From Candidatus Goldiibacteriota bacterium (GTDB lineage Bacteria > Oederibacteriota > PGYV01), in assembly GCA_016937715.1 (NCBI GenBank), contig JAFGWA010000085.1, forward strand, positions 1 to 40,007: a stretch of 40,007 nt of DNA, in the 5' to 3' direction. The position numbers were made by a program, and so were the translations under genes. Under the pieces are notes generated by a model. The model had not been told where the DNA came from, ran no database searches, and saw only the letters and a list, made by a program, of their open reading frames with translations. How positions within the stretch are numbered: position 1 is the stretch's first letter; every line of letters begins with the position of its first letter. Of this stretch, positions 5,472 through 21,885 are shown piece by piece.

Positions 5472-7492
5472 TAAGTGTTTTATTATCGCTGCTTATTTTA
5501 TTATCCGCGTGCGTAAATTTAAACGCGGATAGCATGACGGATTTTTATTACGGGTCAAATCCGGAAAAGACAGCGGCGTATTACGTAATAAAATCGGCTG
5601 AGAACCCGTCTAACAGGTCAAATTATTATTCGCTTGCGTCTGTATATAAAGAATACGGCGAGAATCAGAAGGCGGTTGAAGCATATCTTGAAATTCTTAA
5701 ATTAAATCCGGGTGAAGTCCGCGCGCACTTTGAACTTGCCAAAATGTATTACTTTATGGGCGACGCCGCAAAAGGCGAAGAAATGGTTAATGTCCTGGAA
5801 CAAAAGCAGATGGCCAATTGGGAAGTGTTTTACTGGCACGGCTGCATGCTTTTAGAAACCGGAAGATACGAAGAGGCAAAAGCAAGGTTTCTGCAGGCGA
5901 TAGAGTCAAATAAATACAGGAATATCACCTATGTCAAAATGGCTGAAACCTGCGAGAAAACGGGTGAAATTGACAAGGCGCTGGAGTATTACAAAGAAGC
6001 CATAAATAAAGATAAAATATATACAGAACTTAACCGGCGAATAGCGGTGCTGCATGAAAAAAAGGAAGAATTTATAAGCGCTTATAAATACTGGAACAAG
6101 GTTATTGATGTGGATACAAAAGATAAGGAAGCCCGGGAAAAAGCGCAGCAGTACGCGCAGCTGGTGCCTTCCATAAAACATATGATTGATGCTGATAAAC
6201 AGAAAAAAAAGACGGGGCGGGACTCATATAACCCTCCGGAAAAGCGGGGGATTAAAGGTTCTGAAAGTTTTAAACAGGTGCGGGTGGGTATAATTAACGG
6301 GGCCGAAACTGTGAGTTTTAAACACGGTTCTGATTTTATAATAACGGGGGATGACAAAGAAGAACTTTTCAGGGGAAGCAGGCTTATTGAATACGAGTTA
6401 TCCGTTGAGAAAAAAGGCATATTCATATCTGATTCGGACGGAAATTCAAGAACATTTATAGGCAAGCACGCCGATATAAACGCGAACAGCGTGAATGCCA
6501 CCGCGTCTTTTTATAATATCGCTTACGGGCAGGGATTCTATTGGGCGGAAAAATCCGATACCACTTACAGGGGCGGCTTTGGGCTGGTGCTAAGGTCTGA
6601 TAAAATTAATGTAATAAATAATATAAATATGGAAGAGTATCTGTACGGCGTGATAGCGGCGGAAATACCTTCAGACTGGCCGGAAGAAGCGCTTAAAGCG
6701 CAGGCGGTATCCGCCAGAACGTATACTTTAAAACATTTAAACAGCCATAAAAAAGACGGTTATGATGTGTGCGCCACCCAGCATTGCGCGGTTTATAAAG
6801 GCGTTAACGGTGAAAGAGAAAGGACTATTGCCGCCGTTGATGCGACGCGCGGCGAGGCGCTGTACGACCCTGATGATAAACTGATAAGCACTTTTTTTTC
6901 AAACTGCTGCGGCGGGCACACCGAAGATGTCTATGAAGTGTGGGGGTATAAAGTGTCAAAAAGTTTAAAAGGCGTTTATGACGGGGATTTTAACTGGAAA
7001 TGGAAATTTCCGCTTTCTCCTTTTGACCTTGAAGAATATGTAAGAAGCATGCCTGATGTTTACTGTAAGGCTGAAGGCGCGAATGAAACAAGTTTCAGAT
7101 GGATAAGGTACTTAAACGCGGAAGATTTTCAGCGATACGTTGCCAAAAGAAAAGACATAGGCAGGATAAAAAAAGTGGAGCCGTTAAAAAGGGCGCGCGG
7201 CGGCGCGTTGACCCGCCTTAGAATTACCGGGGATAAAGGCAGTATGGAAGTGAAGTTTGACCCAATACGCACCGTTATGGGCAAAATAAGGTCAAATGTG
7301 ATAAAATGGGAATATGCGCTGGATGAAGAAGGCTATATAAGGTATATATATATTTACGGCGCGGGCTGGGGCCATTCGGTCGGGATGTGCCAGCGCGGTT
7401 TAAGAGGCATGTCATTGAAAGGCAAAAAGTATAAGGAAATTTTAAGGCATTATTACAGGGGTTCGGTAATTAAAAAACTGTATGGAGAGTAA
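5468..7492 (+). CDS. TPR-SpoIID lipoprotein (putative peptidoglycan lytic transglycosylase)
   Basis: This 674-residue protein starts with a lipoprotein signal (LLSAC). TPR-like repeats follow (about residues 45-230), then a SpoIID/LytB domain (about 265-670). The SpoIID core shows the expected catalytic acid in [20 protein letters not shown] (Glu399), a Cys435-x3-His439-Cys440 cluster like the zinc site reported in clostridial Spo[11 protein letters not shown], and the C-terminal [12 protein letters not shown] box. SpoIID enzymes cleave glycan strands that have lost stem peptides. Outside spore formers such proteins are linked to cell-wall remodelling. It overlaps lptB as ATGA, so it is in the LPS export operon. 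The TPRs may recruit other envelope proteins; this is inference. Confidence 0.9.
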
Positions 7493-7493
7493 C

Positions 7494-8447
7494 ATGTACC
7501 CTATAAAAGTTAAGCCGATTTATAAGGATATGATTTGGGGCGGGAAAACACTTAAGGATTTTATGAAGGCGCCTGACGCAAGGATAGGCGAAGCCTGGTT
7601 TTTTGCTTCAACCGATGATGTGTCATCCGTTATAACCAACGGAAAATATAAAGGCGAAAAACTGACTGACACCGTAAAAGAACACGGCAAAGAACTGCTT
7701 GGGCCGGCGATAAATAAAAAATACGGCGGCAGGTTTCCTCTTTTATTTAAATTTATAGATACCGCCCACAAACTTTCGGTGCAGATACATCCTGATGATA
7801 ATATGGCGCGCAAAAAAGGCCTTAGCTGCGGTAAGACAGAGATGTGGCTAATAATAGGGGGGCGTAAGGGCGGGGTTATTCAACTGGGATTTAAAAAGAA
7901 TTACTCAAAAGAAAAAATAAAAAACGCGGCTTTAAACGGCGATATTCCGGAGATGCTGCGTGAATACACCGTAAAACCCGGAGATTGTTTTTTAATACCG
8001 GCAGGCACTGTGCACGCAATAGGCGCGGGGCTGTTAATTTTTGAAGTGCAGCAGAACTCTGATATAACATACAGGCTTTTTGACTGGGGCAGGCTGGAAA
8101 AAGGAAAGCCAAGGCAGCTTAATATTGAAGAGGCGCTGATGTCATTTAAATACGGCCTTGAAAAAGCGTTAAAAGGCAGTAAATTTAAGGCGCGCGGCGG
8201 AATGTACGTAAGAAAACTTCTTGGATGCTGTTATTTTCAGTCTTCAGAAGTGAAAACTTCGGCGAAATTGTCATACATGGAAAAAGGCGGAAAGCCGGTT
8301 GTGGCTGCCGTGATAGAAGGGGAAATGCGCGTTGAAGGCGGTTATGTTTTTAAAAGGGGGGAAGTTGTTTTTCTGCCGTATTCTTACCGTAATTATATTA
8401 TTAAATTCAGCAAAGGGGCGCGGATAATATTTACGGAGGTGAAATAA
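7494..8447 (+). CDS. manA: Class I mannose-6-phosphate isomerase
   Basis: This zinc-dependent isomerase interconverts fructose 6-phosphate and mannose 6-phosphate and feeds GDP-mannose and surface polysaccharide synthesis. The 317-residue length is that of the short Bacillus-type ManA. Zinc ligands are visible in VQIHPDD (Gln, His), KTEMW (Glu) and IPAGTVHAIG (His). The ATG at 7494 is preferred because GGAGAG lies just before it. An in-frame ATG at 7482, inside the previous gene, would add four residues. The gene directly follows the SpoIID gene and its stop overlaps the clpB start by one base. Its presence in an LPS run suggests a role in surface sugar supply. Confidence 0.94.
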   Translation: MYPIKVKPIYKDMIWGGKTLKDFMKAPDARIGEAWFFASTDDVSSVITNGKYKGEKLTDTVKEHGKELLGPAINKKYGGRFPLLFKFIDTAHKLSVQIHPDDNMARKKGLSCGKTEMWLIIGGRKGGVIQLGFKKNYSKEKIKNAALNGDIPEMLREYTVKPGDCFLIPAGTVHAIGAGLLIFEVQQNSDITYRLFDWGRLEKGKPRQLNIEEALMSFKYGLEKALKGSKFKARGGMYVRKLLGCCYFQSSEVKTSAKLSYMEKGGKPVVAAVIEGEMRVEGGYVFKRGEVVFLPYSYRNYIIKFSKGARIIFTEVK

Positions 8448-11054: not shown

Positions 11055-13712
11055 ATGAACAGGGCGATTAAAACAGCATCCATAGCGGTGTTATCGATAC
11101 TTATGATGAGAGGGGTAATAATGGCAAACGCGGATATCACAAAAAAAGTGCTTCAGAACGGGGTAACGATAATTATAAAAGAAAATCACGCGGCGCCGGT
11201 GGCGGCGTGTAATTTCTGGGTGAAAACGGGTTCTGCCTATGAAAGCGATTCGGAAAAAGGCATGACTCATTTTATAGAACACCTTCTTTTTAAAGGCACT
11301 GAAAAAAGAGGGTTGGGGCAGATAGATAAGGAAATAACCGAACTTGGCGGATACAATAATGCTTTTACCACGTATGATGCCACAAATTACGTTATTGTGC
11401 TTCCGGCAGAGCATGTGGAAAAAGCTATTGAAATAGAGTACGACGCGCTGACCGCTTCTGTTTTCGCGGAAGAAGAGATTAATAAGGAAAGGGAAGTGGT
11501 AATTACGGAGCTTAACAGGGGGCTTGATAATCCCCATGTTTTTACGTGGCAGAAACTTATGTACAATTCATTTGAAAAATACTACCGGGACCCTGTCATA
11601 GGATATGAAGACAGGCTGAAAAATTTTAACAGGGAAAAGGTGGTGGATTTTTATTCAAAGCATTATGTGCCTGAAAATATAATTGTCGTAATAGCAGGCG
11701 ATGTGGATGCGGCAAAAACAATGATATACGCGGAAAATCTTTTTGGGGCTATTAAGCCGCGGGGTTCGGCAGGCGATAACCCGGTTGAAGAGATTAAAGA
11801 CAAAGAAGGTTTTACCTATAATACTTTTTCGGGGCAGATTGAAAGCAGGTATCTGGCTGTCTCTTTCAGGATACCGGATGCGGTTTCTTCGGATATGCCG
11901 GCTATAGAGGTGCTGGCGCGAGTGCTTGCCGGTTCCGAAAGCACGGTGTTATACAGGACGCTTAAAGAGGAAAAACAGCTTGTGGATGAAATAGACGTGG
12001 ATATTTTCGCGGGGAAGTCCGGCGGAATAATAGCGTTTTTCGCGACGGTAAGGGAAGGGAAATACGCTGAGACTTTAAAGGAACTGTTTACCCTTATTGA
12101 AAAGGCCAAATCTGAAGCCGTAAAGCCCGAAGTGCTTGCAAGGGTGAAAGCGGACATGATGAGGGAAGAATCCAAAGAAAATATGAAAGTGGAAAATATG
12201 GCTGTTAACCTTGGATATTATCAGATGCTTGGCAGCCACGAGATGTATTACAAATATTATGACGGGCTGCAGAGGGTTATAGAAAGCGATATTCCGAATA
12301 TGGCGCGCCGGTATCTGAATCTTAATAATGCCAATTTAGTTCTTTATTATCCGGCAAAAGCGGAAAATGAATTAAAAGGAATGCTTGATGCTGAAGGGAT
12401 AAGGGGTTTTGTAACTGTAACTCCGGAAGTAAAAGCCGAAGCAGCCGGCGAATTAAAGTCAGAAAAACTTAAGAACGGCATTCTGTTTATTCATAAGAAG
12501 CTGTCCAACACCGGCATTGTCTCGGCCAAGTTTATGTTTACGGGAGGGCAGCCGTATGAAAGCGCGCAGGAAGGGTATTACAGGGGTATTACGAACCTGA
12601 TGATGGAAACCATGATGAAAGGCACCAAAACAAGAAATGCCGCGGCCATAGCGGAAGAAATTGACAGGTTGGGAGCGGTTATGGTCAAGGATATTTCAAG
12701 GGACAGTTTTGGATGGGGCCTTGAATCGTTAAACACAAATTTTGAAGGGCTTATGTCGCTTTTTGCGGATATCGTATTTAATCCGGTATTTTCGCTTTCG
12801 GAAATAAAGAAGGAAAAAGCGGATATTTTAAATATGATAAAGCGGAGAAAAGATAACCCTGCAGGTTACGCGATGAAGATTTTTAATGAAACGCTTTATG
12901 AATGGCATCCTTACGGATACCCTGTAGCAGGCGAGACAGAAACCGTGAACCGTATAAGTTCGTCGCTTATTAAAGAGTGGCATAAAAACAGGCTTATGCC
13001 CAATACCCTTGTGGTGTCTGTGGTGGGAAATATAGAGTACGATGACGCGAAAAATATGGTTCAGAAACATTTTGGCGCCTGGAAAAAAGGCAGGCAGCCA
13101 AACGCGAAGATACCGGTAAAAATCACAGAGCAGAAAAAAGAGAAACGCGAGACTTTTGAAAAAAACCAGACACATATGGTCCTTGGTTTTTTAGGGCCCA
13201 AAACAGGCTCCGATGATTATTACCCGTTTCGGGTGCTGGATTCAGTTTTAAGCGGGGGTATGAACAGCAGGTTATTTTCGGAAGTAAGGGATAAAAGAAA
13301 CCTGTGTTATACAATATATTCCATGTTTGACCGTACGGTGGAGCGCGGCGCGTTTAAGATATATACCGCCACATCGCCGGAAAACGAGCAGGCTGCTTAC
13401 GACGCCATTCTTGAAATATTAAATGATATTAAAAATAACGGTATTACTGACGGGGAATTAAAAACCGCCAAGGCATATATAAGCGGCATGTATAAGATTG
13501 GCATGCAGGACTATATGGGCAGGGCGGATTCTTACGCGGCTTATGAAATACTTGGGCTGGGCTATGAAAATGTGGATGTGTTTCCTGACAGAATTAACGC
13601 GGTCACAAAAGAAGAAGTAAACAGCGTGATACAAAAATATTTTAAATTGGACGGGATGACAAAAGCTGTTGTAGGGGCGGCTGTAAAGAAAAAACAGGAG
13701 GCAGGAAAGTGA
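11055..13712 (+). CDS. Secreted M16-family zinc metallopeptidase, two-half fusion
   Basis: The 885-residue protein contains two M16 units in tandem. The first is catalytic: inverted zinc motif His72-Phe-Ile-Glu75-His76 with a third ligand at about Glu152 (VVITELNRG), followed by an M16C domain. The second unit (about 475-880) has lost the zinc motif (LMMETMMKGT where an HxxEH would be). It keeps the substrate-clamping region around SGGMNSRLFSEVRDKRNLCYTIYS. Active-plus-inactive halves in one chain are the normal pattern for long M16 peptidases. A signal-like N-terminus (about residues 1-26) suggests export. Substrates are unknown; relatives degrade small peptides. A strong GGAGGT precedes the ATG. 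The stop overlaps the next start as GTGA. Confidence 0.92.
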   Translation: MNRAIKTASIAVLSILMMRGVIMANADITKKVLQNGVTIIIKENHAAPVAACNFWVKTGSAYESDSEKGMTHFIEHLLFKGTEKRGLGQIDKEITELGGYNNAFTTYDATNYVIVLPAEHVEKAIEIEYDALTASVFAEEEINKEREVVITELNRGLDNPHVFTWQKLMYNSFEKYYRDPVIGYEDRLKNFNREKVVDFYSKHYVPENIIVVIAGDVDAAKTMIYAENLFGAIKPRGSAGDNPVEEIKDKEGFTYNTFSGQIESRYLAVSFRIPDAVSSDMPAIEVLARVLAGSESTVLYRTLKEEKQLVDEIDVDIFAGKSGGIIAFFATVREGKYAETLKELFTLIEKAKSEAVKPEVLARVKADMMREESKENMKVENMAVNLGYYQMLGSHEMYYKYYDGLQRVIESDIPNMARRYLNLNNANLVLYYPAKAENELKGMLDAEGIRGFVTVTPEVKAEAAGELKSEKLKNGILFIHKKLSNTGIVSAKFMFTGGQPYESAQEGYYRGITNLMMETMMKGTKTRNAAAIAEEIDRLGAVMVKDISRDSFGWGLESLNTNFEGLMSLFADIVFNPVFSLSEIKKEKADILNMIKRRKDNPAGYAMKIFNETLYEWHPYGYPVAGETETVNRISSSLIKEWHKNRLMPNTLVVSVVGNIEYDDAKNMVQKHFGAWKKGRQPNAKIPVKITEQKKEKRETFEKNQTHMVLGFLGPKTGSDDYYPFRVLDSVLSGGMNSRLFSEVRDKRNLCYTIYSMFDRTVERGAFKIYTATSPENEQAAYDAILEILNDIKNNGITDGELKTAKAYISGMYKIGMQDYMGRADSYAAYEILGLGYENVDVFPDRINAVTKEEVNSVIQKYFKLDGMTKAVVGAAVKKKQEAGK

Positions 13713-14122
13713 TACGGATAAAACCGCTTAATGCATCAAATTTCTCGAAATACGGAAAGATTATCTGCCAGGAAAAAGAAAATGAGATATTTCAGGTGGT
13801 GTTGTCAGAACCCGCGCAGACAGGGTGGAGGATAGGTTACCTTGTAATGGGGCCGGGCAGGACAGACAGCCTTGAAGCGCACCCGGAATCATATGAAACT
13901 TTTGAACCGGTTTCAGGAACGGCAATAATGCTGGTTGCCGAAGAAAAGACGCCGGATAAGATAGAGGCGTTTCTGCTGGATAAACCGATATGTATTAATA
14001 AAAAAATATGGCACGGGGTCAGTGTGCTGTCTGAAAAATGCGAGATTAAAATAATGGAAAATTTTGAAGTGGAATCCATATTTCATAAACTTGAAAAGAA
14101 CCTTGAAGCGGGTTTTGTATAA
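13709..14122 (+). CDS. Ureidoglycolate lyase (AllA)-like cupin protein
   Basis: This 137-residue small cupin resembles the AllA/ureidoglycolate hydrolase family. It shows HPESYETFEPVSGTAIMLVA, close to the HP..QxFIPMxG...VVVA block, a following AFLLDKPICINKKIWHG, like the family's NYHRNVWHHP, and an N-terminal LNASNFSKYGKII like the typical AllA opening. No purine-catabolism gene is nearby, so ureidoglycolate cleavage is doubtful. Many distant members have unknown substrates. GTG start overlapping the M16 gene stop by four bases (GTGA), so the two are translationally coupled. About 83 bases separate it from the PAP2 gene. Confidence 0.65.
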   Translation: MIRIKPLNASNFSKYGKIICQEKENEIFQVVLSEPAQTGWRIGYLVMGPGRTDSLEAHPESYETFEPVSGTAIMLVAEEKTPDKIEAFLLDKPICINKKIWHGVSVLSEKCEIKIMENFEVESIFHKLEKNLEAGFV

Positions 14123-14179: not shown

Positions 14180-14208
14180 TTGCCTGTACACCGGGGTGGT
14201 GGCAATTG
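14180..14208 (+). promoter_or_regulatory. Possible ribosome-binding-site hairpin at the PAP2 gene start
   Basis: TTGCC (14180-14184) can pair with GGCAA (14201-14205), and ACC (14190-14192) with GGT (14198-14200). The fold leaves a 5-base bulge and a 5-base loop, and it buries the GGTGG Shine-Dalgarno. The TTG start codon lies inside the perfect palindrome GGCAATTGCC (14201-14210). The start may therefore be poorly accessible. This was folded by eye only. Confidence 0.3.
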
Positions 14209-15639
14209 CCGGAAAATAAAATCAGAAGAAATATTCTTATGTTATTATCGCTGCTTGCCGTTACGGTGCCTTTTTGGGTGTCTGATATTGATTTGCGGGT
14301 GCAGTCGTTTCTGTATGATTCATCCGCGGGTACATGGAAATTCGGCGATAATTTTTTTGTTTTATTGCTTTATAGATACGGCACTTTAATTCCCCTTGCG
14401 CTTGGCGTAATAGCGGCCGGTGCTGTTGCTGCTTCGTTTTTTTCGGAACAATTCAGAAAAAACAGAAAACCCGCGCTTTTGTTTCTGTTTGTTTTTCTTG
14501 TGGGGCCGGGGCTTATTGTTAACGTTATTCTGAAAGGGTATATGGGCAATCCCAGGCCGCGTGAGGTTGTTGAATTTGGCGGTAAGTGGCAGTATTCAAA
14601 ACCGCTTATGCCCGGAACTCCCGGAAAAGGGCATTCTTTTCCGTGCGGACACGCCTCTGCGGGATTTATGGCCGCGGTTATGTACTTTTATCTGAGGCAC
14701 AGAAATAAAAGCGCGGCTAATACAATGCTTGTCACCGGCACGGCTTACGGAGCGCTTATGGGTTTTGGCAGAATGGCACAGGGGGCGCACTTTTTATCTG
14801 ATGTAATCTGGGCGGGCGGAATTGTATTTTTAACGGCTTCGCTTGCGGATGACTTTCTTATAAAAACAGGAGATTTTGACTACAACCGTAAAAGAAGCGG
14901 AACCTTAAAACCGGTTGGTATAGCCGCGGCGGTTCTGGCAGCCGCTCTGGCAGGTTCGGCTTTTCTTTTTTCCACTCCTTTTTACAGGGAAAAAACATTC
15001 GATTCGGCGGTAGCGCCGGATAATACGGTAAATATATACACGCAGCAAAGTTCCGTACACATACTTGCCGGCGAAAAAAGGGCTTTTGTAAAATCGGCTT
15101 CAAACGGCTTTGGGCTAAAAGGCAATGATATTATTGATGATTATGACTATAAAGAAAAAGAAGGCAAAGGAATAATTAATTACAGGGCGGCTAAAAAAGG
15201 GCTGTTTACAGAGCTTGTTGCGGATACGGAAGTATCGCTTCCGGATTCGGCATACGTATTAAAAGTGGAGACCTTAAAAGGCGACATTAATTTTAACGCG
15301 AAAGGCAGATATTCCGGACTTATTCTTTATTCCGCCAAAGGTGATGTTAATTTTACGGCTGAACCCGGCGCGGTTTTTGATTCTGTGTTTTTAAAAGCCG
15401 CAGACGGGGATATAAAATTCAGAATTAAGCAGGGAGCTGTTTTCAATCCTGATTCCATGTTGGTAATAAACGCCGCGAAGGGTAAAGTGATAATGTCAAA
15501 CACCGGGGGTTATTATGAAGGCATGTTTAAAGGGATTGATAAAAAGAACGGTTCTCTGGAGATGGAGCATTACGGCAAAGACGGCGCAAAAGCGTTTATA
15601 AACGCGGGTAAAAGAATCTATTATGACGGTGAAAAATGA
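14206..15639 (+). CDS. PAP2-family membrane phosphatase fused to a beta-rich exported domain
   Basis: The N-terminal 230 residues form a multi-span PAP2 phosphatase. The three-part active site is complete: KX6RP at Lys110-Arg117-Pro118, PCGH at 146-149 (PSGH in most relatives), and Arg189-x5-His195-x3-Asp199. Members dephosphorylate lipid A, undecaprenyl diphosphate or phosphatidyl phosphates at the outer face of the inner membrane. A last membrane segment (about 236-258) leads to a C-terminal domain of about 210 residues with repeating short strands (for example LKVETLKGDINFNAKG and SAKGDVNFTAEPG), like the DUF4097/adhesin-type beta-helix. That fusion is not part of the standard family. The TTG start is chosen for its GGTGG; an ATG at 14239 is the alternative. 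The stop overlaps the RuBisCO-like gene as ATGA. Confidence 0.87.
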   Translation: MPENKIRRNILMLLSLLAVTVPFWVSDIDLRVQSFLYDSSAGTWKFGDNFFVLLLYRYGTLIPLALGVIAAGAVAASFFSEQFRKNRKPALLFLFVFLVGPGLIVNVILKGYMGNPRPREVVEFGGKWQYSKPLMPGTPGKGHSFPCGHASAGFMAAVMYFYLRHRNKSAANTMLVTGTAYGALMGFGRMAQGAHFLSDVIWAGGIVFLTASLADDFLIKTGDFDYNRKRSGTLKPVGIAAAVLAAALAGSAFLFSTPFYREKTFDSAVAPDNTVNIYTQQSSVHILAGEKRAFVKSASNGFGLKGNDIIDDYDYKEKEGKGIINYRAAKKGLFTELVADTEVSLPDSAYVLKVETLKGDINFNAKGRYSGLILYSAKGDVNFTAEPGAVFDSVFLKAADGDIKFRIKQGAVFNPDSMLVINAAKGKVIMSNTGGYYEGMFKGIDKKNGSLEMEHYGKDGAKAFINAGKRIYYDGEK

Positions 15640-16859
15640 GCCGCATACTTGCGAAATATTACATTGAAACTCCTGATGACGCGGAAAAAACAGCATCGTT
15701 AATGGCAAAAATGCAGTCCACGGGCACGTGGAAAGATTTAGAAGGGGAAGCGGCGCTGGCGGCCAGGTTTGGGGCAAAGGTGGAAAGTATTAATATCACC
15801 GGAAACAAGGACGTTTATTCGCTGCCGACAAGATATCCTGACGGCAGGAAAGTCACATCAGCGGAAGCGGTAATTTCTTATCCGTGGGAGAACTTTGGGC
15901 CAAAAATTTCCATGCTGCTGACCACAGTGGCGGGCGAGATATTTGACATGTATGAACTGACAGCCGTAAAACTTATAGATATTGAAATGCCGGACAATTT
16001 TGTAAAATTATTTCCGGGGCCGCGGTTTGGAATAGAAGGCTCGCGTAAAATATCCGGTGCTTTTGGCAGGCCTCTGTTTGGGGCAATCACAAAACCATGC
16101 GTGGGGCTTACTCCAAAGCAGCAGGCAGAACTGGCGTATCAGGCGGCAAGCGCCGGCGCGGATTTCATAAAGGATGATGAACTGCTGGCTGACGCCCCGT
16201 ATAACAGGATTACGGACAGGGCTAAAGCAGTGGGGCAGGCAATGAAGAAATCTTTTGATAAAACCGGCAGGCGTACAATGTACGCGGTTAACATAACCGA
16301 TGACCCTGATAATACAATGAAGTTTCATGATATAGTCAAAAAAAGCGGCGCAGGGGCGTTAATGTTTAATTCATTTACAGGCGGGCTTAATAATCTATGC
16401 GTTCTTGCAAGAAAGACAAAATTGCCCATACACCTGCACAGGGATTTTGCCGCGGCGTCAATGCGCGGTTCTTATATAGGAATCTCGCCGGTTGTTTATG
16501 TGAAGCTTGCCAGAATGTGCGGCGCAGACCAGATACAGTGCGGCGGCCTTGGCGGATATTTATATGAAAGCGACGATGAAATGCTGCAGTCTATGCGTGC
16601 GTGTACCGCGCCCATGGCAGGGTTAAAACCGGCGCTCCCGGTATCATCCGGCGGTATGTGGGCGGGCAAACTGGCGGATAATATAAAAAAAATAGGTAAT
16701 AACGATTTTATGTTTTTGTGCGGCGGCGGCGTATTTGGACACCCGGACGGCGGTTACGCGGGAATGCGCTCGCTTTTTGAAGCGTGGGATGAATATAACG
16801 GCATGCCGGAAGGTAATCATCTGAAAGCGGCAAGGGCGGCGTTTGAACGGGTAAAATAA
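15636..16859 (+). CDS. RuBisCO-like protein (type IV)
   Basis: This 407-residue protein has the full RuBisCO large-subunit fold. Kept positions (spinach numbering in brackets): Thr31 (65), Trp32 (66), Lys153 (175), the metal-site trio Lys179 (201), Asp181 (203), Glu182 (204), His268-Arg269 (294-295), Ser338-Gly339-Gly340 (379-381), Gly363-Gly364 (403-404). Lost positions: Met26 for Glu60, Glu101 for Asn123, Cys155 for Lys177, Gln301 for His327, and no lysine in loop 6 (334). It therefore cannot fix CO2 but should still bind Mg and enolise or decarboxylate a phosphorylated sugar-like substrate. The subgroup (MtnW, IV-Photo, EnvOnly, OiaX-like) cannot be assigned by eye. It overlaps the PAP2 gene by four bases, with no methionine-salvage or sugar genes nearby. 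Confidence 0.93.
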   Translation: MSRILAKYYIETPDDAEKTASLMAKMQSTGTWKDLEGEAALAARFGAKVESINITGNKDVYSLPTRYPDGRKVTSAEAVISYPWENFGPKISMLLTTVAGEIFDMYELTAVKLIDIEMPDNFVKLFPGPRFGIEGSRKISGAFGRPLFGAITKPCVGLTPKQQAELAYQAASAGADFIKDDELLADAPYNRITDRAKAVGQAMKKSFDKTGRRTMYAVNITDDPDNTMKFHDIVKKSGAGALMFNSFTGGLNNLCVLARKTKLPIHLHRDFAAASMRGSYIGISPVVYVKLARMCGADQIQCGGLGGYLYESDDEMLQSMRACTAPMAGLKPALPVSSGGMWAGKLADNIKKIGNNDFMFLCGGGVFGHPDGGYAGMRSLFEAWDEYNGMPEGNHLKAARAAFERVK

Positions 16860-20904: not shown

Positions 20905-21885
20905 ATGCCGTCAATTTTAAATAAATCCCTGATTAATATGTTTATCTTATTGTTTTCTGTTTTAATCCTTGTTTCCTGCGCGGGTGTTGCGCCTGTCGCG
21001 GAGCCGTTAAAACCGATTCATCAGAGGCTTTATTCCTATGACGCTGATGTAAAACTTATGGCTGAAAAGCAGTTTGAAACTTTAAGCTCCGATGAAAAAA
21101 AAGAAGTGCTTTTAATGACTGCCGCGCAGCTTGAAAAAGAAGGTGATGCTGATACCCAGATGCGGATTATCAAGTCGCTTGCGGATAACGGGGCAGGTTC
21201 TTATGTGATACCATCGCTTATAAAAGCGCTTGCGGTAAATACAAAACTGACAATTACAGCCACGATAAATGACTTTATAAATAACGCGCAGCCGGCAGAA
21301 GAAGAGATGGCGGAAAAAATAGCATCATATCTTAATGAAGGTTCGTCAAAAGCCAGGCAGGCGGCTTATCTGGCGCTTGGTAAAATGTCTATAAAGGCAA
21401 AAAAAGCGGTACCGCAGATAATTGACGCGATGCATAAGTTTGGGGCTGACGCGGCTGAATACGCAAGCGGTTTTGAAGCGCTTGCCAAGATTGACCCGGA
21501 AATAGCGGTTGCGTCAGCGATTAAAGATCTTGAAAATGCGGCTGTGGATATACGCAAGAATTCGCTGGAAAAGCTTATAGAGATTCAGGCTTATATGAAC
21601 AACAAATTACCCGCAATTAAAGAAGTGGCGACCGCGCTTTTAAGGATACTTTACAGTGATGACAGCGGGCTGAAGAAACTGGTGGAAGAAAACATAAATA
21701 CCGAAGACGCCGCCGCTATTAAGGCGGAAATGGATAAGTACATGAAGACGGGCGCCAGAATAATGGGCGCGATAAGCAGGACTCTTGGCGTGAGTATGGA
21801 TGATATATTCAAAGCGCAGGACGAACGCCTTGACGGTAAATTAAAGAAGTTTTATGAAGAGATTGGGAAAGAATACAAGGAGTAA
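20905..21885 (+). CDS. HEAT-repeat lipoprotein
   Basis: This 326-residue protein has an N-terminal hydrophobic segment and lipobox (LVSCAG, Cys about residue 26). Helical repeats follow: pairs of helices of about 35-40 residues with patterns such as SKARQAAYLALGKMSIKAKKAVPQII and AAEYASGFEALAKIDPEIAVASAI, typical of HEAT/armadillo scaffolds. A more acidic tail ends it. GGAGGG precedes the ATG. The gene follows the zinc-ribbon gene by 15 bases. It would act as a scaffold on the periplasmic side of a membrane; partners unknown. Confidence 0.72.
   Translation: MPSILNKSLINMFILLFSVLILVSCAGVAPVAEPLKPIHQRLYSYDADVKLMAEKQFETLSSDEKKEVLLMTAAQLEKEGDADTQMRIIKSLADNGAGSYVIPSLIKALAVNTKLTITATINDFINNAQPAEEEMAEKIASYLNEGSSKARQAAYLALGKMSIKAKKAVPQIIDAMHKFGADAAEYASGFEALAKIDPEIAVASAIKDLENAAVDIRKNSLEKLIEIQAYMNNKLPAIKEVATALLRILYSDDSGLKKLVEENINTEDAAAIKAEMDKYMKTGARIMGAISRTLGVSMDDIFKAQDERLDGKLKKFYEEIGKEYKE

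Follow-up and report, generated by a model that had tools for sequence, protein, structure and literature searches.

A predicted non-carboxylating RuBisCO-like protein with an altered active site in a form IV subclade of the Goldbacteria

INTRODUCTION

A gene in the 40,007-nucleotide stretch of DNA analysed here (the window; contig JAFGWA010000085.1 of a Candidatus Goldiibacteriota bacterium) encodes a RuBisCO-like protein (RLP), P0001, and raises the question of which reaction may be catalysed by a protein that keeps the metal and phosphate sites of RubisCO and has replaced several of its other key residues. An earlier note, made from the letters of this DNA, had suggested that the protein may act on a new substrate. 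Published form IV subgroups include IV-AMC, IV-GOS and IV-Aful (PMC10173188), and the same source describes a D-hamamelose RLP oxygenase, which oxygenates 3-keto-D-ribitol-1,5-bisphosphate. The features of the locus are given in Table 1.

Table 1. Genes of the RLP locus and aligned active-site elements of P0001 (positions in the window)
Feature	Position	Strand	Remarks
ManA-like mannose-6-phosphate isomerase	7482..8447	+	Member of the order-wide block
Ureidoglycolate-lyase-like small protein (PF04115)	13709..14122	+	Pfam, block comparison
PAP2/LpxF-like membrane phosphatase, with C-terminal domain	14206..15639	+	Overlaps RLP start by 4 bp (ATGA)
RuBisCO-like protein P0001	15636..16859	+	407 aa; represents the Goldbacteria clade in the window
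Met26 (RubisCO Glu60)	15711..15713	+	Met or Ile in clade members
Glu101 (RubisCO Asn123)	15936..15938	+	Clade-invariant; aligns with Lys98 of G. kaustophilus MtnW
Lys153-Pro154-Cys155	16092..16100	+	Invariant; RubisCO Lys175 kept, Lys177 replaced by Cys
KDDE metal/carbamate motif, Lys179-Glu182	16170..16181	+	Alignment
His268-Arg269 (RubisCO His294-Arg295, kept)	16437..16442	+	Alignment
Loop 6, Gln301-Cys302-Gly-Gly...Tyr308 (RubisCO His327-Ser328...Lys334)	16536..16559	+	Alignment
Phosphate loop Ser338-Gly339-Gly340	16647..16655	+	Alignment
Phosphate loop Gly364-Gly365	16725..16730	+	Alignment
Gene without Pfam match	20905..21885	+	Follows the RLP in most relatives; directly after PAP2 where the RLP is lost

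RESULTS

Fold and active-site residues of P0001

Both large-subunit domains were found in P0001 by Pfam (RuBisCO_large, 2.7e-57; RuBisCO_large_N, 8.9e-10), and an AlphaFold2 model made with 18 sequences (mean pLDDT 91.7) had RubisCOs and RLPs as its top, full-length matches in the PDB. These results, together with the replacement of RubisCO residues K177, K334, E60, N123 and H327, assign the protein to form IV. In an alignment of P0001 with the form I enzyme of C. necator pHG1 and 47 other RubisCO and RLP sequences (spinach numbering), E60 is replaced by M26, N123 by E101, K177 by C155, H327 by Q301 and K334 by Y308, and further changes are found at H298 (A272), S328 (C302) and T330 (G304). 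The metal-site residues K201, D203 and E204 are kept (K179, D181 and E182), as are T65 (T31), W66 (W32), K175 (K153), H294 (H268) and R295 (R269) and, at the phosphate site, S379/G380/G381 (S338/G339/G340) and G403/G404 (G364/G365). The residue calls of the earlier note (the first four of these replacements and the absence of the loop-6 Lys) were all correct, and its statement that the metal site and phosphate loops are kept was confirmed.

The RLPs of this type from 11 genomes of the order share 49–92% identity with P0001, and residues E101, K153, C155, K179, D181, E182, H268, R269, Q301 and C302 are invariant in all 11; between three congeneric copies, dN/dS was 0.08–0.09 (about 0.09). Because of this invariance and the low dN/dS, the substitutions are neither chance nor decay, and the gene is under purifying selection. 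A subclade of three genomes (G004, G009 and G011) has more changes at E60, T65, W66, K334 and G403, including T65I, W66L/Q and G403S.

Distribution in the order and beyond

The window-type RLP is present in 11 of the 14 genomes of the order; in G005 an RLP fragment lies at a contig end, and in G007 and G013 the gene is missing. Different RLP types occur in a number of the phylum's other families. When 84,980 species genomes were scanned with short peptide patterns, a method that can miss distant relatives, eight loci of at least 50% identity were returned, followed by a drop to 39% or less, and most of the eight correspond to order genomes already in the comparison. So far, the subclade has been seen almost exclusively in uncultured bacteria of the Goldbacteria/FCPU426 order. 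Two database entries, titled Spirochaetia bacterium (L034) and Candidatus Methylomirabilis sp. (L040), have an RLP positioned as in G012 and G009, and their titles are probably wrong. Another RLP type, from other families of the phylum (L015–L024, e.g. L015, L022 and L024), has Cys at K177 and a P-S...GK loop 6; in the tree it branches close to MtnW without falling within that group.

Phylogenetic placement

In a maximum-likelihood tree of 56 rows and 407 columns, the 11 order sequences form a single clade (100/100) that lies outside forms I–III (100/98), MtnW, DeepYkr and the OiaX/NonPhoto/acid-sugar set (100/100). A form I, II or III RubisCO is rejected: P0001 reaches 228 of the 497 bits required for rubisco_III, its catalytic set is incomplete, and forms I–III are a separate clade. 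Grouping with DeepYkr RLPs (5-methylthioribulose-1-phosphate 1,3-isomerase; R. palustris RLP1, 3qfw), which belong to the same superfamily, is firmly rejected (p-AU 2.6e-38), the metal motif being KDDE in P0001 and KDDH in DeepYkr. MtnW (IV-YkrW; 2,3-diketo-5-methylthiopentyl-1-phosphate enolase) has the same fold and metal site, and in both proteins N123 has given way to a charged residue (Glu101 in P0001, Lys98 in the MtnW of G. kaustophilus); however, P0001 has His-Arg where MtnW has His-Pro, and loop 6 reads Q-C-G-G against L-F-P-S. The view of the earlier note that the residue pattern does not match MtnW holds by score (174 bits where 513.6 are required, and 205 where 409 are) as well as by the position of MtnW elsewhere in the tree.

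The nearest named subgroup in the tree is IV-Photo, and P0001 might be a divergent Photo RLP sharing the Photo role. The IV-Photo RLP of C. tepidum has been linked to stress response and sulfur oxidation. The activity of IV-Photo itself is not established (PMC5893883). The Photo structures 1tel/1ykw (C. tepidum) and 2qyg (R. palustris RLP2) are the best sequence and Foldseek matches of P0001 (35–37% identity), the KDDE motif and the Glu at N123 are common to both, and the goldbacterial clade, Photo and the RLP of genome G058 are united at 98/91. However, the three Photo sequences used group with one another at 100/100 in this tree and again form a 100% clade in a quick tree, and P0001 lies outside the Photo clade in both. 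Photo has lost T65, R295 (R295F), S379 (S379G), G381 (G381S) and G403 (G403R), all of which P0001 keeps, whereas E60 is kept in Photo and lost in P0001, and C177, Q327, C328 and Y334 of P0001 stand against N, I/V, M and R in Photo. The branch that unites the three lineages has a support of 68 in the quick tree, which was made without the long rows, and the branching order within Photo, G058 and the goldbacterial clade has a support of 53/19 in the 56-row tree, an arrangement of the goldbacterial clade with Photo but without G058 giving an AU p of 0.46. On this evidence we consider a shared Photo role rather unlikely. YjbQ (PF01894), which is encoded next to the Photo RLP of Thiodictyon, was uninformative, as it occurs in 13 of the 14 order genomes regardless of the RLP.

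The best NCBIfam model for P0001 is that of the 3-oxo-isoapionate-4-phosphate decarboxylase OiaX (NF042437). P0001 might thus alternatively be a sugar-acid phosphate decarboxylase like OiaX, or might act in the breakdown of four-carbon acid sugars. Gln at H327 is common to OiaX and P0001; like P0001, most proteins of the OiaX/NonPhoto/acid-sugar set retain His294-Arg295, and the metal site is retained in all of them; and 3nwr of this set matches the P0001 model with a VIA-align Z of 50.2, tied with Photo at 49. The OiaX score of 307.5 bits nevertheless falls below the cut-off of 700, OiaX lies in a separate 100/100 clade, a union of P0001 with OiaX/NonPhoto is rejected by a narrow margin (p-AU 0.041), and these proteins keep the loop-6 Lys334 that P0001 is missing. 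Several NonPhoto/acid-sugar RLPs adjoin acid-sugar kinases or sugar transporters, whereas none of the 14 order genomes has a member of the four-carbon acid sugar kinase family PF07005, which is found next to related RLPs of other organisms. OiaX identity is thus rejected, and the wider decarboxylase reading appears very improbable.

The RLP of G058, the only genome of its phylum among those compared, has 49% identity to P0001, and S337 and N349 are common to it and the goldbacterial clade. It retains nearly the full RubisCO active-site set, E60, N123, H327 and K334 included, the exception being Asn at K177, whereas P0001 has lost all five RubisCO residues. Because G058 retains them, E60, N123, H327 and K334 would have been lost in the goldbacterial clade. 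At the G058 locus (L083:8966–10276) folK lies upstream of the RLP and a gene for fructose-6-phosphate aldolase two genes downstream.

The earlier note had proposed a phylogeny with all type IV subgroups; of those in the tree (MtnW, DeepYkr, OiaX/NonPhoto/acid-sugar and Photo), none includes P0001. Judged from its sequence, P0001 is a full-length, predicted non-carboxylating RLP in its own form IV subclade, set apart from the subgroups compared, and on the sequences and literature compared, the goldbacterial branch apparently has neither a name nor a known reaction.

Gene neighbourhood

Across the order the RLP gene belongs to a block of lptC/A, lptB, spoIID, manA, (clpB), an M16 peptidase gene and the genes for the PF04115 protein, PAP2 and the RLP, with one further gene. 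The earlier note had argued for a new substrate from the coupling of the RLP to a lipid-type phosphatase and not to sulfur or sugar genes. The absence of sugar genes is not quite right, as the block includes manA and lpt genes. The 4-bp overlap with the phosphatase gene is real; PAP2 adjoins the RLP in all 11 order loci that have one, the two genes overlap in nine of these, and the overlap is old. However, G007 (98% complete, on a 226-kb contig) and G013, both of one genus, have lost just the RLP, which leaves PAP2 directly ahead of the block's next gene. Since the flanking genes persist when the RLP is lost, the context names no substrate: the PAP2 phosphatase is a neighbour that does not need the RLP, and neither it nor the PF04115 protein can be taken as evidence for the RLP's function. 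Riboswitches or other RNAs at gathering score were absent from the window and three related loci. In the PAP2/LpxF-like protein, the C-terminal stretch of more than 200 residues beyond the phosphatase domain gives no Pfam match at E 0.001.

The order-wide comparison also bears on a possible role of P0001 in pentose or sugar-phosphate metabolism of a lineage without transaldolase. Of the 14 order genomes, 11 lack transaldolase (PF00923); those that have it are the RLP-less G007 and G013 and also G010, which has the RLP. Each order genome has at least one of the two, if G005 is counted by its RLP fragment, and manA lies in the same block as the RLP. Yet the pattern reflects a single loss of the RLP in one genus, which carries no statistical weight, and in G058, the nearest outside relative, an RLP and the aldolase mentioned above are found together. 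We know of no reaction by which an RLP would replace transaldolase in this way, and we regard such a role as quite improbable.

A second RLP and sulfur salvage

The same genome encodes a second RLP of the DeepYkr type, closest to 3qfw (G000:C116, L002:1144–2262; also L084:9253–10371), to which type P0001 has 33–41% identity across the catalytic part. At each of the nine order loci inspected this gene lies downstream of a split transketolase, with an SMR transporter gene between the two in the present genus, and the pair occurs in nearly every member of the order, including one that has lost the window-type RLP. A relative on a rhizobial plasmid (L175) lies in a cluster of mtnK, mtnA, split transketolase and RLP, and elsewhere in the goldbacterial genome MtnA (438 bits, cut-off 279) adjoins a purine nucleoside phosphorylase. 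The sulfur-salvage role is probably filled by the DeepYkr-type RLP with the split transketolase, MtnA and the nucleoside phosphorylase, and the transketolase–RLP trio suggests that a transketolase/DXS-like enzyme serves in a variant of the salvage route. On a Vibrio nigripulchritudo plasmid (L070:3004–7623) a distant RLP is flanked by a split transketolase on one side and an FGGY kinase on the other, which gives a further transketolase–RLP pairing.

Beside the second RLP, P0001 could itself act in methionine or 5'-deoxynucleoside salvage, with MTRu-1P or DK-MTP-1P as the substrate of an isomerase or enolase reaction. The presence of MtnA and the nucleoside phosphorylase is consistent with this, as is the weak in vitro MTRu-1P isomerase activity of the R. 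palustris Photo RLP (PMC5893883). The missed MtnW cut-offs, the rejected union with DeepYkr, the near-universal second RLP with its transketolase and the mtnK-mtnA neighbours of its rhizobial relative all argue against it, and we find it improbable. Because the second RLP, MtnA and the nucleoside phosphorylase are in the genome, a sulfur-salvage role for P0001 is unlikely. The earlier note had also considered the case of a methionine salvage pathway lacking only MtnW; this does not apply to a genome with these components and the split transketolase.

DISCUSSION

The reading of P0001 that we favour, and to which we give an even chance, is that it may be a proton-transfer enzyme that uses Mg2+ and a Lys carbamate to act on a phosphorylated ketose, E101 being the candidate base. 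As predicted from the alignment, K179 would be carbamylated and hold Mg2+, a phosphorylated ketose (or dicarbonyl) would be bound across the metal, and a proton would be moved via an enediolate, as by an enolase, isomerase or epimerase, CO2 being neither fixed nor released. The likeliest new acid/base would be E101, helped by K153, C155 or H268. The retention of the metal triad and phosphate residues points to a metal-bound phosphorylated substrate, and the loss of K334, E60, N123 and K177 argues against CO2 chemistry; proton transfer on a phosphorylated ketose is favoured because of these kept and lost residues and because E101 occupies the position of Lys98, which we take to be the catalytic base of G. 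kaustophilus MtnW. Work by Imker and colleagues in 2007 is said to have given Lys98 this role. Against one fixed phosphorylated substrate stands the partly changed phosphate site of G004, G009 and G011. The substrate would probably be a sugar phosphate that belongs to neither the methionine-salvage nor the apionate route.

That P0001 may act on a new substrate, as the earlier note had put forward, is a fair possibility because the protein is not MtnW, lies outside the subgroups compared and has an active-site set of its own, although the phosphatase argument for it fails. It is tempting to go further and to speculate that the clade catalyses a reaction new for RLPs, on a central or envelope sugar phosphate, with Glu101 as base and possibly with Cys155 or Cys302, and that it has taken over a step in a transaldolase-less lineage; this we hold to be possible but doubtful.

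RLPs illustrate the adaptation of a single metal–enediolate site to carboxylation, isomerisation, enolisation and decarboxylation; for the majority of subgroups no reaction is known. In the goldbacterial clade five key RubisCO residues have been replaced while the metal and phosphate sites are kept under strong selection. The goldbacterial RLP and that of G058 are a good pair for tracing the conversion of a carboxylase site, and the clean natural loss of the RLP in one genus provides a genomic handle on its role.
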